Assembly (NCBI RefSeq): GCF_013409065.1
Contig: NZ_JACBZP010000001.1
Location: 496,001 to 560,000, forward strand
DNA: 64,000 nt
Direction: 5' to 3'
DNA from: Spelaeicoccus albus
GTDB taxonomy: Bacteria; Actinomycetota; Actinomycetes; Actinomycetales; Brevibacteriaceae
Part shown: piece by piece, positions 34,871 to 43,939 of the stretch
How positions within the stretch are numbered: position 1 is the stretch's first letter
Layout of the letters: each line of letters starts with the position of its first letter
Position numbers and translations under genes: made by a program
Notes under the pieces: generated by a model
What the model was told of the DNA's origin: nothing
Seen by the model: the letters and a program-made list of their open reading frames with translations, nothing else
The model's database searches: none

Positions 34871-36571
34871 TCAATCGAAGATGACCGCGCGGCCTTGGCG
34901 CTTCAAATCCTCAAGTCCTTCTCGCATGGTTTTCAGCTGCTCCGGCGAGTGGCCGGTCCAGTTTTGCAGTTCGCCGACAATCTTGACGGGCCGGCGAGTG
35001 CGGTACGACCGAGTCGGGTTGCCGGGGAACTTTTTGTCCGTGACGTTCGGATCGTCTTCGACTGTGCCAAGCGGTTCCACGATGTAAATCCGGCCCCGCC
35101 CGTCGCCTACGGCAAGTTCGGCGCCCCAAGTTGCGGCATCCAGGGTGGCCGTCACGTACACGTTGTTCGCCGTTCGGCCCTCTTCAAAATTCGAAGCGTG
35201 CCCGGGTACCAATAGGTCGCCCACGGCAAGGTCGGCTTTGGTCCCGTGCAGCAGCACGCCCAACTCGTAGATCTCGAACGGTTTCGGCTCGCGCATGCGT
35301 CTCCCGATAGATTCGACCCCGGAACCGCCGCAGACACCGGTCTCCGGGAGCGTGAGTTCCACATGCGCGGCAGCATCGTGGTCGCCGTCGATTTCCGCGG
35401 CTATCGACCTGACTTGTTCAAAGCCCGTCATGGCCAGGAACGATGTCGCCCGTCCATAGCTCTTCATCCCTGCCATGTAGAACCCGGGCTCGGGCTGGGC
35501 GAGTTCGCGGGCGCCGTGCGGGTAGACGGTTCCACAGGAGTGCACGTTCGGATCGATCAATGGCGCCAGCTGTCGCGGCGCTTGCAAGATCGGATCCAAG
35601 TCCAGCCGGACTTCGGTCAGCATGGAAAGGTCCGGACGGAACCCGGTCACCGCCACAATCTCGTTGACACCCTCGACGGTTTGGCCGTCGAACGACTCTA
35701 ACCGCAGTTTGCCGTCCGGGCCCTCGGCCACGCCCTGGGTGCGGAACCCCGTCAGTGTTCGTACTCGGGACGACTCGACGGCCGCATGGGCGCGTTCACC
35801 CAGGGCGCCCCGCGCGGCCAGTTGGTCGTTCTCGCCGCCACCAAATGCGTTCGACGTACTAGGCCGGCGCACTAGCCACGTCACGGTGGTCTCTGGATCG
35901 TCTTCGGCAAGCTGAGCAAGTGCGACGAGGACCGTCTTCGCCGACGCCCCCGTCCCGGCAACGGCAACGTGTTTGCCGGCGTACCGGGCGCGAATCGTGG
36001 GGTCGGCCAGGTCTGGAACGCGATACGTGATCCGCCTCGCGTGGAGCGACTCGCGCGCCGCGGGCAGTCCATCGGCGCCAAGCGGGTTCGGCGAATCCCA
36101 GGTGCCGGACACGTCGATCACTGCTCGAGCGGCTATGCGGTCCACACCCGCTCCGGTAGCAACATGGACCGTGAATGGTTCGCTTTCGCGCCCGGCATCG
36201 ACCACCAAATCTCGGCCTTGCCTGGCAACACCCGTCACCCGGGCGCCATAGCGGACGTGGTCACCCAGCACGTCGGCCAGCGGTTGCAGATAGTGGGACA
36301 CCCACTCCGCTCCGGTCGGATAGCCGTCGGGGTCCGGGGCCGTCCAGCCGGTCGGCGCGAGTAGTTTCTCCGCTTCCGGGTCGATGAGCTGTGACCACGG
36401 CGAGAACAATCGAATATGACCCCACTGGCGAACGCCGGTGCCGGCCGTGGGCCCGGCTTCGACCACCAGAGGTTCCAGTCCGCGATTGATCAAGTTCGCC
36501 GCGGCCGCCAAGCCGATGGGGCCGGCGCCGATCACGACGACCGGGAGTGCTTGCCCGGCGGATTCAGACAT
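34871..36571 (-). CDS. Fusion: ArsO-like flavoprotein monooxygenase + rifampin ADP-ribosyltransferase (Arr)
   Basis: A 566-residue fusion. Residues 1 to about 414 are a flavin-dependent monooxygenase of the ArsO type: FAD motif GAGPIG (15-20), NADPH motif VAGTGASAKTV and a C-terminal LPETGVC (408-414). After a 15-residue linker, residues 430-566 are a full-length Arr domain: LLHGTKADLAVGDLL, SNFEEGRTANNVY, WGAELA, VEDDPNVTDKKFPGNPT, NWTGHSPEQL. The three Arr active-site residues are present with Arr spacing: His442, Tyr472, Asp507. The ATG overlaps the acr3 stop by 8 bp. Met426 is preceded by GGGAG and could start a free Arr of 141 residues. Arr inactivates rifamycins by NAD-dependent ADP-ribosylation. 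Confidence 0.88.
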   Translation of the reverse strand: MSESAGQALPVVVIGAGPIGLAAAANLINRGLEPLVVEAGPTAGTGVRQWGHIRLFSPWSQLIDPEAEKLLAPTGWTAPDPDGYPTGAEWVSHYLQPLADVLGDHVRYGARVTGVARQGRDLVVDAGRESEPFTVHVATGAGVDRIAARAVIDVSGTWDSPNPLGADGLPAARESLHARRITYRVPDLADPTIRARYAGKHVAVAGTGASAKTVLVALAQLAEDDPETTVTWLVRRPSTSNAFGGGENDQLAARGALGERAHAAVESSRVRTLTGFRTQGVAEGPDGKLRLESFDGQTVEGVNEIVAVTGFRPDLSMLTEVRLDLDPILQAPRQLAPLIDPNVHSCGTVYPHGARELAQPEPGFYMAGMKSYGRATSFLAMTGFEQVRSIAAEIDGDHDAAAHVELTLPETGVCGGSGVESIGRRMREPKPFEIYELGVLLHGTKADLAVGDLLVPGHASNFEEGRTANNVYVTATLDAATWGAELAVGDGRGRIYIVEPLGTVEDDPNVTDKKFPGNPTRSYRTRRPVKIVGELQNWTGHSPEQLKTMREGLEDLKRQGRAVIFD

Positions 36572-37670
36572 GTTGTTTCTCCTTCGCGTCTGTCGGAAAG
36601 AAGCGGCGTCCGGCCCAGAGTGCAACGTAGACGAGCGCGACCAGCACCGGGACCTCGATCAGGGGGCCGACGACGCCGGCGAGTGCCTGGCCCGAGGTGA
36701 TGCCGAACGTGCCGATGGCCACCGCAATGGCGAGTTCGAAATTGTTGCCTGCCGCGGTGAACGCCAGCGTGGCAGTCTTTGCGTATCCGAGTCGCAGCCG
36801 GTGGCCGAGCACCATGCCGATCGTAAAAGTGAGAGCGAAATACGCGAGCAACGGCACGGCGATGCGCGCGACGTCCAGCGGATTGCTGATGATGGCGTCA
36901 CCTTGCAGCGCGAACAGCAGCACGATCGTGAAGAGCAGGCCATAGAGCGCCCACGGGCCGAGCCTTGGCAGGAACTTCGATTCGTACCAGTCGCGACCTT
37001 TCGCGCGTTCGCCGATCTGCCTCGTCACGAACCCGGCGATCAGTGGGATTCCGAGAAAGACGAGAACGCTCGTGGTGATGGCGATGATCGAGAAGTTGGC
37101 GCTCGTCGTCGGCAAGCCGAGCCAGCCCGGCAGCGTCTGGAGGTAGAACCAGCCCAGAGCGGCGAACGCAAGGACTTGGAAGACCGAGTTGATTGCCACG
37201 AGCACCGCTGCGGCTTCGCGATCGCCACAGGCTAGGTCGTTCCAGATGAGGACCATCGCGATGCACCGGGCCAAGCCGACGATGACCAGACCCGTCCGAT
37301 ATTCGGGCAGGTCCGGAAGCAACAGCCACGCCAGGGCGAACATCAGTGCCGGCCCCACCAGCCAGTTCATCACCAGGGAGGCCACCAAAAGTTTGCGGTC
37401 GCCGCCGATACGAGAGGTTTCGCTGTAACGAACCTTTGCCAGCACCGGGTACATCATGACCAGCAGTCCGATCGCGATCGGAACCGATACCGAGCCGATC
37501 GTGAACGAGTCGAGTCCATCGGTGAATCCCGGCCATGCCCGGCCGATGAGCAGACCGGCAGCCATTGCCGTCACAATCCAGACCGGCAGGTACCGGTCGA
37601 GCCGCGACAAATGGCCGATCACCGCTTCCGCGGCGCCGTTCGGCGCTGCTGTTTCGTCTTGCTGTGGCAT
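36564..37670 (-). CDS. acr3: Arsenite efflux permease Acr3
   Basis: A 368-residue ten-helix BASS-superfamily permease that exports arsenite, As(III). Family hallmarks: SVSVPIAIGLLVMMYPVLAK, the essential Cys136 in GLARCIAMVLIWNDLA, and AAGNNFELAIAVAIGTFG with the conserved Asn/Glu. Divergent from arsR across an 89-bp gap with a palindromic operator. It is followed by the ArsO-Arr fusion, whose start lies inside its 3' end. No arsenate reductase (arsC) is adjacent. Confidence 0.93.
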   Translation of the reverse strand: MPQQDETAAPNGAAEAVIGHLSRLDRYLPVWIVTAMAAGLLIGRAWPGFTDGLDSFTIGSVSVPIAIGLLVMMYPVLAKVRYSETSRIGGDRKLLVASLVMNWLVGPALMFALAWLLLPDLPEYRTGLVIVGLARCIAMVLIWNDLACGDREAAAVLVAINSVFQVLAFAALGWFYLQTLPGWLGLPTTSANFSIIAITTSVLVFLGIPLIAGFVTRQIGERAKGRDWYESKFLPRLGPWALYGLLFTIVLLFALQGDAIISNPLDVARIAVPLLAYFALTFTIGMVLGHRLRLGYAKTATLAFTAAGNNFELAIAVAIGTFGITSGQALAGVVGPLIEVPVLVALVYVALWAGRRFFPTDAKEKQHV

Positions 37671-37759: not shown

Positions 37760-38140
37760 ATGACCGCCACATCGCCCGCCACACGCAACGAGATCGGCGT
37801 TTGCTGCTCGCGTGTCACCGCCGGGGCGCTCGACATCGCCGCGGCGGAACGCCTGGCGCACGTCTTCAAGGCATTGAGCGACCCGACCCGGGTGCGTCTG
37901 CTATCGCTCATCTCGGCAGCACCCACCGGCGAAGCCTGCATTTGCGATCTCACGGCACCTGTCGCGCTGTCCCAGCCGACAGTCTCGCACCACATGAAAC
38001 TGCTGACGGACGCCGGGCTCGTCACGCGCGAGCAGCGCGGGAAATGGGCTTATTATCGAATTGTCGACGCCGCCCTGAGCGCCGTGAGTAATACTCTCGA
38101 CCCCAGCAAGGCACCGTTTCGAGAACCCACGGACCCCTGA
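37760..38140 (+). CDS. arsR: ArsR-family arsenite-responsive repressor
   Basis: A 126-residue SmtB/ArsR winged-helix repressor: AHVFKALSDPTRVRLLSLIS, LSQPTVSHHMKLLTDAGLV (recognition helix) and GKWAYYRIV (wing). Candidate As(III) thiols are Cys15-Cys16 near the N-terminus and Cys60/Cys62 in ACICDL. The N-terminal Cys pair plus a Cys near the start of the DNA-binding region resembles corynebacterial ArsR1 rather than the E. coli type. Release by arsenite would induce acr3, the ArsO-Arr fusion and possibly the two-component genes. Confidence 0.9.
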   Translation: MTATSPATRNEIGVCCSRVTAGALDIAAAERLAHVFKALSDPTRVRLLSLISAAPTGEACICDLTAPVALSQPTVSHHMKLLTDAGLVTREQRGKWAYYRIVDAALSAVSNTLDPSKAPFREPTDP

Positions 38141-41026: not shown

Positions 41027-41158
41027 TTGAAGAGTCGGGGCTGCGATCGACGAATCGCAAGCCACCGCCTGTCGGGCCCATCTCAACCCCCGCGGGGCGC
41101 CATTGTCGGGTGCCCACGCAGGTGCTGGGCCATCGCAATAATCACGAGGAGGATAAAA

Positions 41159-42061
41159 GTGACTGAGACTGTTACCCAAATCGAGGATGCATACCCCACC
41201 CGGTCGGTCGACCGGCCGAATGTGATCGACCGTCCCGATCCGACGGTTTGGGGAAGCGGCCGCGAAGGTCCGCTTGATTCGGCCACGGTGCGGCATTACA
41301 ACGACAACGGCTACCTCACGATCGACCAATTGGTGACGCCAGCCGAGCTTCAGGAAATGAAAGACGAGCTCGAGCGGCTGTCGGAAGATCCCGTCGTCCG
41401 CGCCGACGAGCGCACGATTGTCGAGCCGGCTTCGCAGGGCGTTCGGTCGATCTTCGAAATTCACAACACCAGCGAGGTATTCAAGAAGATCGCCCACGAT
41501 CCGCGAGTAGTGAACCGAGCCCGTCAACTGCTCGGGTCGGATGTGTACATCCACCAGAGCCGCGTGAACTTCAAGCCGGGATTCGAAGGCAAGGAGTTCT
41601 CCTGGCACTCGGATTTCGAGACGTGGCATGCCGAAGACGGGATGCCTCGCACGCGTGCCGTCAGCATTTCCATTTCACTCACGCGGAACTATTCGTTCAA
41701 CGGTCCGCTGATGATCATGCCGGGGTCGCACACGAAGTTCGTTCAGTGCGTCGGCAAGACGCCCGAGGACAATTACAAGCAGTCGCTGCAGATGCAGGGG
41801 CCGGGAACCCCGGACAAGAAGACGCTTGAAGGTTTTGCCGACAAGTACGGCATCGATGTGCTCGAGGGCGAAGCCGGCGGGGCGATCATGTTCGACTCGA
41901 ACTGCATGCACGCGTCGAACAGCAACATCACGCCGTTCGCCCGCTCGAACGTGTTCATCGTGTACAACAGCGTGGAGAACGCCTGCGGCGAACCGTTCGC
42001 CGCGCCGAAGGCCCGTCCGGAATTCGCCGGATCGCGGGACTTCACCCCGGCCGGCCAGTAG
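41159..42061 (+). CDS. ectD: Ectoine hydroxylase EctD
   Basis: A 300-residue Fe(II)/2-oxoglutarate dioxygenase that converts ectoine to 5-hydroxyectoine, a compatible solute protective against salt and heat. The EctD signature is FSWHSDFETWHAEDGMPRTR, with iron ligands His150 and Asp152; the third ligand is His251 in CMHASNSN, and Arg262 is placed to bind 2-oxoglutarate. Length matches characterised EctD proteins. The start is GTG 41159, preceded by GAGGAGGA. ectABC are not nearby, so ectoine must come from elsewhere in the genome or from uptake. A palindromic element follows the stop. Confidence 0.95.
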   Translation: MTETVTQIEDAYPTRSVDRPNVIDRPDPTVWGSGREGPLDSATVRHYNDNGYLTIDQLVTPAELQEMKDELERLSEDPVVRADERTIVEPASQGVRSIFEIHNTSEVFKKIAHDPRVVNRARQLLGSDVYIHQSRVNFKPGFEGKEFSWHSDFETWHAEDGMPRTRAVSISISLTRNYSFNGPLMIMPGSHTKFVQCVGKTPEDNYKQSLQMQGPGTPDKKTLEGFADKYGIDVLEGEAGGAIMFDSNCMHASNSNITPFARSNVFIVYNSVENACGEPFAAPKARPEFAGSRDFTPAGQ

Positions 42062-42159: not shown

Positions 42160-43209
42160 ATGGAATATCGCAGCCTTGGACGCACCGGAATGCAAGTCAG
42201 CCCGCTTTGCCTCGGGGCGATGATGTTCGGTGCGTGGGGCGAGCCCGACCACGACAAATCGACGGCGATCATCCACCACGCGCTGGACGCCGGCATCAAC
42301 TTCATCGACACGGCGGACGTGTATTCGCAGGGCGAGTCCGAAGAGATCGTCGGAAAAGCCCTCGCCGACGGAAAGCGCGACGACGTCATCCTGGCAACGA
42401 AGTTCCACGGCCCCATGGAAGACGCCGACGGCAATCGGGGTGTCAATCGCGCCGGCAATTCGCGCAGGTGGATCATCCGTGAGGTGGAGAACAGTTTGCG
42501 CCGACTTCGCACCGACTGGATCGACCTCTACCAGGTGCATCGCCCGGAACGCGGCACGGACGACGAAGAGACTCTGTCCGCGCTGACCGACCTGCGCACG
42601 CAGGGCAAGATCCGCGCCTTTGGCTCTTCAACGCACCCGGCCCACAAAATCGTCGAGGCCCAGTGGACTGCCGAGAGGCGGGCCCTCGGACACTTTTCAA
42701 CCGAGCAGCCACCATATTCGATACTGGTGCGCGGAGCCGAAGCCGAAGTGCTTCCGGTCACGCAGAAGTACGGCATGGGTGTTCTGTCGTGGAGCCCGTT
42801 GGCCGGCGGTTGGCTCTCCGGGCGATTCCGGAAAGGGCGGGACGTCCCCGACAGCAAGCGCGCTCAGCGCATGCCGGCGCGTTACGACCTGTCCGATCCG
42901 GGCAATCAGCGCAAGCTGGACGCAACCGAGGATCTCGCGGTGCTGGCCGAGCAATCCGGCTTGTCACTCATTCACCTGGCCTTGGCCTTCGTCATGGCGC
43001 ACCCCGCCGTGACGGCTCCCATTATCGGACCACGGACGATGGAGCAGCTCGACTCCCAACTGGGCGCGCTCGACGCCACCCTCACCGACGACGTCCTCGA
43101 TCGCATTGACGAGATCGTTCCGCCCGGCGTCACTCTGGCCGACGCCGACAAGGGATTCACGCCGGCGCCGCTGACCGATCCGTTCTTGCGACGGCGCCGC
43201 ACCGTTTAA
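42160..43209 (+). CDS. Aldo/keto reductase
   Basis: A 349-residue NADPH-dependent AKR barrel of the YhdN/YajO general-stress type. Signatures: GTGM-like start EYRSLGRTGMQVSPLCLGAM, catalytic Asp/Tyr in NFIDTADVYSQGESE, Lys in ILATKFHG, His in YQVHRPE, and cofactor loop APIIGPRTMEQLDSQ near the C-terminus. It reduces aldehydes or ketones; the substrate is unknown. It follows ectD with element C between and precedes the deaminase-ASCH gene by 19 bp. Confidence 0.87.
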   Translation: MEYRSLGRTGMQVSPLCLGAMMFGAWGEPDHDKSTAIIHHALDAGINFIDTADVYSQGESEEIVGKALADGKRDDVILATKFHGPMEDADGNRGVNRAGNSRRWIIREVENSLRRLRTDWIDLYQVHRPERGTDDEETLSALTDLRTQGKIRAFGSSTHPAHKIVEAQWTAERRALGHFSTEQPPYSILVRGAEAEVLPVTQKYGMGVLSWSPLAGGWLSGRFRKGRDVPDSKRAQRMPARYDLSDPGNQRKLDATEDLAVLAEQSGLSLIHLALAFVMAHPAVTAPIIGPRTMEQLDSQLGALDATLTDDVLDRIDEIVPPGVTLADADKGFTPAPLTDPFLRRRRTV

Positions 43210-43228
43210 CCGCAGGTAGCATGAACAC

Positions 43229-43939
43229 ATGCTCAGCGCACTCGAAAAGCAGCTGGTCGACGCGGCCGTCGACGTTGCCCGGTCGCTGCCCGGCGGAGAT
43301 ATCCACACTGTTGCTGCAGCAGCGATGGATACCGAGGGGGTCATCCACACCGGGGTCAACGTCTTTCATTTCACCGGCGGTCCGTGCGCCGAAATGGTCG
43401 CCATCGCGTCGGCCGCCGAGGCCGGAGCCGGGCCCCTCGTGGCAATGGTCGCCGTCGGTGACCGCACCCGCGGAGTCATCGCTCCATGCGGGCGGTGCCG
43501 TCAATTCATGCTCGACCTGCACCCCGACATCCATGTCGTAGTCCCGTCGGACGGCGACCTGGCAGTCCACCCGATCCGCGACCTCCTTCCGTTCGCGTAT
43601 CGAGCCACGAGCTACGCAACCGGACCGCGCGTCGTGCATTTTGCGTCGCGTTATTTTCAGGACGTCGCCTCCGGGCGCAAGACTGTCACAGTGCGTCGAG
43701 ATGACCCGATTCAACCGGGCCCCGTCATTTTCGTCTTCGACGACGGTGACGGGCTGCGACGCCTGGACGGCATCATCGACACGGTCCGGTCGACGACCGC
43801 CGGCGAGCTCACGCCCGAGGATGCCCGCGGCGAAGACCTCCCCGATCCCGCATCGCTGCGCGCTCGCCTTCTGGATCATTATCCCGACTTGTCCGACGAG
43901 GATTCGGTCCAGGTGGCCGAGTTCCATCTCGGACACTGA
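43229..43939 (+). CDS. Fusion: cytidine deaminase-like domain + ASCH (YqfB-like) domain
   Basis: A 236-residue two-domain protein. Residues 1 to about 128 are a cytidine/blasticidin-type deaminase with zinc and proton-shuttle residues Cys53-Ala-Glu55 (GGPCAEMV) and Cys87-x2-Cys90 (APCGRCRQ). Residues about 134-236 are an ASCH domain (VHFASRYFQDVASGRKTVTV, then HYPD and VAEFHL). The E. coli YqfB catalytic residues (Lys21, Thr24, Glu74 as I recall them) align with Lys151, Thr154 and Glu202. YqfB hydrolyses N4-acetylcytidine to cytidine, so both steps to uridine may be joined here. Starts 19 bp after the aldo/keto reductase. Confidence 0.83.
   Translation: MLSALEKQLVDAAVDVARSLPGGDIHTVAAAAMDTEGVIHTGVNVFHFTGGPCAEMVAIASAAEAGAGPLVAMVAVGDRTRGVIAPCGRCRQFMLDLHPDIHVVVPSDGDLAVHPIRDLLPFAYRATSYATGPRVVHFASRYFQDVASGRKTVTVRRDDPIQPGPVIFVFDDGDGLRRLDGIIDTVRSTTAGELTPEDARGEDLPDPASLRARLLDHYPDLSDEDSVQVAEFHLGH

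Follow-up and report, generated by a model that had tools for sequence, protein, structure and literature searches.

The window analyzed here, a stretch of 64,000 nucleotides from the genome of Spelaeicoccus albus, hosts a gene for a protein of 236 amino acids (window 43229..43939, + strand), which starts with ATG at 43229, terminates with TGA at 43939 and contains no internal stop codon. An aldo/keto reductase gene ends with its stop codon approximately 20 bases upstream of this start, and an antisense open reading frame (ORF) at 43157-43936 looks like a shadow of the high GC content. Pfam analysis of the translated protein placed a zinc domain of the cytidine/deoxycytidylate deaminase type on residues 7-98 (E = 2.5e-8, above the curated cut-off) and an ASCH domain (PF04266) on residues 137-233 (E = 7.9e-7, 30.2 bits vs. 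a gathering cut-off of 21.2 bits). Two halves can be delimited, i.e., a deaminase half (residues 1-125; 43229..43603, +) and, from Pfam and profile comparisons, a YqfB-like ASCH half (residues 134-233; 43628..43927, +), connected by a linker varying in length and sequence (residues 126-133; 43604..43627, +). A preceding sequence-only reading of this DNA had proposed such a deaminase/ASCH fusion, which is corroborated by the intact ORF, by both Pfam domains scoring above their cut-offs and by the recurrence of the same architecture in relatives.

The zinc site described in that reading, consisting of C53, C87, and C90 together with the catalytic E55, is likewise intact and found at the positions given. 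C53-A54-E55 (43385..43393, +) provides one zinc ligand and the catalytic Glu, and C87-G-R-C90 (43487..43498, +) contributes zinc ligands two and three. Within 35 intact or nearly intact fusion copies, on which the residue counts are based, C53, E55, and C87 are present throughout (35/35), while C90 is exchanged for Asp in two Streptomyces copies. An exchange of the third zinc ligand from Cys to Asp (PCGRDRQ) also marks a clade of proteins of the blasticidin-S deaminase (BSD) type, with as well as without ASCH domain (L028, L030, L046-L052, L107, L108). Either the zinc is held differently in this clade or its members are not deaminases.

Of 60 genomes from the window's family, the Brevibacteriaceae, approximately 30 carry the two-domain protein, mostly with 35-50% identity; Brevibacterium renqingii is one of the carriers. 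On class level, a sample of 395 genomes contained five matching over both halves (the window's genome counted) and more than 20 matching the deaminase half only. Additional copies reside on plasmids of Streptomyces, Curtobacterium, and Rhodococcus, where their annotation reads "ASCH domain-containing protein". This recurrence shows that the fusion is no product of chance and that it defines a protein family conserved in actinobacteria. In Rhodococcus gordoniae, IS elements flank the gene on both sides, and in the main Brevibacterium clade it occupies a conserved chromosomal site near a GroES-like gene. Frameshifted or truncated copies occur in about four further genomes of the same family (L068, L069, L070, L071), a pattern to be expected if the gene is accessory and dispensable. 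Neither beside the S. albus gene nor beside its plasmid and Brevibacterium counterparts were genes for pyrimidine salvage, nucleoside transport, or nucleoside antibiotics recognized. Among viral contigs, no pattern match encodes a relative of the fusion protein; phage records gave no match to it, and it matches no PADLOC or PHROGs family of anti-phage defence or phage proteins. A search of the open-access literature retrieved no earlier paper on the deaminase-ASCH architecture.

The sequence-only reading had labelled the first half a cytidine deaminase, a designation that had to be abandoned in favor of the BSD type. In a phmmer search against the PDB, the deaminase half matched the BSD of Aspergillus terreus with E = 1.8e-35 (residues 2-124), compared with 1.3e-12 for the best cytidine deaminase. 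It reached 61.4 bits with PRK05578 (cut-off 74) and 57.3 bits with TIGR01354 (cut-off 113.65), and stayed under the curated cut-offs of every cytidine-deaminase model listed. S. albus possesses a separate canonical cytidine deaminase (L003) scoring 172 bits with PRK05578 (cut-off 74) and containing NVENA. In the alignment, cytidine deaminases including this one have GCNVENAAYGxxxCAE where the deaminase half has GVNVFHFTGGPCAE. The NxE ribose motif of cytidine deaminases is therefore absent, with NVF replacing NVE; the Glu of this motif contacts the ribose in the docking of cytidine deaminase CDA_F14 (PMC9897663). In a phylogenetic tree, fused and unfused BSD-type proteins together are split from cytidine deaminases at 100% SH-aLRT.

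The zinc site C-A-E / P-C-G-R-C-R-Q, the HFTGGPC motif and the terminal LLPxxY of the deaminase half are common to the fusion and to the BSDs of A. terreus (PDB 1wn5) and Streptomyces lividans. With the A. terreus enzyme, the fusion shares the longer stretch GVNVxHFTGGPCAE. Unlike these stand-alone proteins of approximately 130 amino acids, the fusion adds an ASCH domain past the conserved Tyr. Tetrameric cytidine deaminases (PRK05578/TIGR01354) share the deaminase fold family and the zinc ligands with the fusion, which differs from them in missing the NxE ribose motif and in falling under their curated cut-offs. Judged by its sequence, the deaminase half is thus of the BSD type and not a cytidine deaminase. 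Consequently, a BSD-type sequence without the Glu of NxE would be expected to prefer blasticidin-like hexosyl cytosines over cytidine.

To our knowledge, a function has been assigned to only a minority of ASCH domains, YqfB being among the few with a known reaction. The relation of the second half to this N4-acetylcytidine (ac4C) amidohydrolase is distant. Comparison of the single S. albus protein with YqfB gave a weak match (E = 0.044) and approximately 24% identity, and its score with the YqfB equivalog model PRK04980 was 16 bits (cut-off 93); no full YqfB ortholog was found in 39 related genomes. The ASCH-half family profile retrieved from the PDB YqfB itself (1te7, 7.5e-10) and N4-acetylcytidine amidohydrolase (9kyf, 8.6e-10), with the next ASCH structure at 0.39. 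In hhalign comparisons, the ASCH half aligned to YqfB with a probability of 97.5% (score 67.9), vs. 90.6% (40.2) for KTxExR-type ASCH domains and 51.5% (29.8) for 22 ordinary actinobacterial ASCH domains, which we take to be of the Ef3133 type. The highest score among 60 column-shuffled YqfB alignments serving as control was 20.4, and each of three clades, taken alone, preferred YqfB over ordinary ASCH. AlphaFold models obtained from two-sequence input had a mean pLDDT of 45 for the whole fusion protein and 44 for the ASCH half, too poor for superposition on YqfB. Among solved structures, YqfB is the nearest to the ASCH half in these profile comparisons, bearing out the earlier description of this half as YqfB-like.

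YqfB contains seven invariant residues, of which K21, T24, and R26 cannot be exchanged for Ala without inactivation, while T24S is active (PMC6972931). The E74A exchange lowers turnover on ac4C approximately 1000-fold, and H70A and Y89A lose less (PMC6972931). The segment K151-T-V-T154-V-R156 (43679..43696, +) holds the equivalents of K21, T24, and R26, present as Lys in 35/35 copies, Thr in 33 and Ser in two, and Arg in 35/35, respectively; the Thr to Ser change in the two copies is the one YqfB tolerates, given the activity of T24S. Y218 (43880..43882, +), situated within a HYP motif, corresponds to Y89 and is found in 34/35. E202 (43832..43834, +) is the equivalent of E74, which is not kept across the fusion family: only three of the 35 copies have Glu, the rest Asp, Thr, Ser, Gln, and others. 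D27 and H70 of YqfB are also replaced in most copies, in S. albus by R157 and D198. Three residues past R156, the alignment of copies shows D159 (43703..43705, +) to be acidic (Asp or Glu) in 35/35, at a position occupied by Ser in YqfB; our guess is that it may act as general acid in place of E74.

The sequence-only reading had relied on K151, T154, and E202 occupying catalytic positions of YqfB. The positions are right, but beyond the poor retention of Glu, the same trio occurs in nearly all of the 22 Ef3133-type domains, so it is not by itself diagnostic of YqfB, and we rejected its use to prove the presence of a YqfB active site. Ef3133-type domains resemble the S. albus fusion in GxK..T and in having Glu where YqfB has E74; they differ in a KxxT without following Arg, an EGEGD loop and the missing HYP motif. 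In the alignment, the residues that point to YqfB are R156 and Y218, which together with K151 and T154 complete the set of YqfB residues (K21, T24, R26, Y89) matched in the fusion.

The residue pattern also bears on the question of whether the ASCH half is an enzyme at all. Having lost amidohydrolase activity or never possessed it, it could serve as a substrate-binding lid, oligomerization or stability module for a BSD-type deaminase acting alone. The loss of the E74 equivalent in most members and the replacement of D27 and H70 are in line with this, as is the faster evolution of the ASCH half, seen in a mean top-residue frequency of 0.60 vs. 0.71 in the deaminase half and in longer branches in the trees. 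Moreover, BSD-type deaminases without ASCH domain exist, and the ASCH domain begins soon after the conserved tyrosine ending the deaminase. A pure lid, however, would hardly be expected to retain exactly the Lys, Thr/Ser, and Arg that are essential in YqfB, in 35/35 copies and with the tolerated Ser as sole change of the Thr. We regard a non-catalytic ASCH half as somewhat unlikely.

The linkage of both halves was evaluated from their separate trees. Four changes of fused state were counted in the deaminase tree and three in the ASCH tree, with the same fused groups in both and with unfused ASCH members falling among the fused groups. This favors a fusion that arose early and was lost again in places, as well as a lasting functional link. 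An old fusion with losses fits the trees, which have few alignment columns and limited support; repeated fusion is a possible alternative origin. Among seven class-sample genomes with the ASCH subfamily, five carry it fused to the deaminase, one to a SAM-dependent methyltransferase (L072:3989-4903), and one apparently alone, showing that the ASCH half has no strict need for the deaminase.

The methyltransferase fusion of a sister ASCH domain could be taken as a hint at a guiding role, in which the ASCH half would attach to modified RNA and direct the deaminase to a tRNA or rRNA base, and PUA/ASCH domains are often RNA-binding parts of RNA-modifying enzymes (PMC7641849). Yet YqfB-type proteins showed no nucleic acid binding in gel shifts (PMC9599836), and the deaminase half belongs to the BSD type, which acts on free nucleosides, and not to a tRNA-editing type. 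We consider a function on RNA highly improbable.

The sequence-only reading had explained the fusion by pathway logic as a salvage enzyme, in which the ASCH half would remove the acetyl group of ac4C from RNA turnover and the deaminase half would convert the resulting cytidine to uridine. The YqfB-like character of the ASCH half with its retained Lys, Thr, Arg, and Tyr speaks for this reaction, and ac4C is the preferred substrate of YqfB (PMC6972931, PMC9599836). However, the S. albus genome lacks the known bacterial ac4C writers TmcA (PF08351, PF13718) and TmcAL (PF05636); PF08351 and PF05636 are missing from 28 relatives as well, while control genomes gave matches. Hence, the RNA turnover of S. 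albus itself provides no known source of ac4C; scavenging of ac4C from other organisms is possible. The deaminase half also lacks the ribose-binding Glu and scores under the cytidine-deaminase cut-offs. In addition, tetrameric cytidine deaminases turn N4-acylcytidines into uridine unaided (PMC9897663), and as S. albus has a canonical cytidine deaminase of its own, the pathway logic of the fusion is weakened. Finally, the spread of the gene is that of an accessory one: its patchy occurrence, the plasmids and the neighboring IS elements are easier to reconcile with an accessory gene for detoxification than with a housekeeping role in salvage. Taking these points together, we consider salvage of ac4C in one protein improbable, and a function directed toward antibiotics fits better.

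We know of no described resistance enzyme that would both deacylate and deaminate its substrate. As best explanation for the data set, although we place it somewhat short of an even chance, we tentatively propose that the fusion is an accessory bifunctional actinobacterial enzyme inactivating cytosine nucleoside antibiotics, its activities, substrates and order of steps being predicted. Its substrates would be cytosine nucleoside antibiotics taken up from neighbors. On an N4-acylated cytosine such as that of amicetin-type antibiotics, the C-terminal YqfB-like ASCH domain would hydrolyze the amide; K151 would be the putative base, T154 the nucleophile and R156 the oxyanion holder. The 4-aminopyrimidine thus released would then pass to the N-terminal BSD-type zinc site formed by C53, C87, and C90, where with E55 as proton shuttle the cytosine would be converted to uracil, which would no longer bind the ribosome. 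Support for this proposal is provided by the combination of a BSD-type deaminase, a YqfB-like ASCH half retaining Lys, Thr, Arg, and Tyr, the accessory spread, the lack of a known ac4C writer and the fusion to this deaminase in five of the seven class-sample genomes with the ASCH subfamily.

Several properties of potential substrates are consistent with an antibiotic-inactivating fusion. BSDs detoxify blasticidin S (PMC4664946). Amicetin has its nucleoside core in common with blasticidin S and carries a p-aminobenzoate arm; chemists mimicked this arm through acylation of blasticidin S at its C4 amine and called the result a "labile cytosine amide" (PMC12856912). Among the groups removed by YqfB-type enzymes are aromatic N4-acyl groups, the bulkiest of them slowly (PMC9599836). 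The N4 acyl arm would have to be removed before or during deamination. By analogy to cytidine deaminases, the deaminase half might also release the arm as amide without help, which would make the ASCH half dispensable. The more specific version, a two-step resistance in one protein against N4-acylcytosine antibiotics (amicetin, plicacetin, bamicetin), in which the ASCH half strips the deaminase-blocking arm and the BSD half destroys the cytosine, is possible, though we hold it with considerable doubt.

Counted against detoxification are the missing E74 equivalent in most members, the existence of the same ASCH subfamily without deaminase, and the S. albus locus, where no nucleoside-antibiotic cluster or transporter adjoins the gene; the neighborhoods seen are uninformative. 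The conserved chromosomal place in the main Brevibacterium clade, which resembles that of a stable resident, also counts against the proposal. The fusion ties a YqfB-like ASCH domain to a defined partner and yields a prediction of substrates that can be tested directly. If true, a deacylate-then-deaminate route would be added to actinobacterial resistance against cytosine nucleoside antibiotics, and the current semisynthetic approach of acylating blasticidin S at the C4 amine may be countered by a resistance enzyme that already exists.

Two further loci of the window were recorded in parallel. Two genes upstream of the fusion gene, a phytanoyl-CoA dioxygenase-family gene (PF05721) is located at 41027-42061 (+), its product presumably resembling ectoine hydroxylase; the window's listed ORFs around it include no ectoine cluster. 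On the reverse strand, 34871-36625 (-) encodes a 582-aa protein in which an FAD/NAD(P) oxidoreductase, weakly similar to ArsO, is joined to a rifampin ADP-ribosyltransferase (NF033144, 200 bits vs. a cut-off of 130). Its neighbors are the genes of an arsenite exporter of the ACR3 type (36564-37670, -) and of a regulator of the ArsR type (37760-38140, +); a domain of the rifampin-resistance type thus appears to be embedded in an arsenic cluster.
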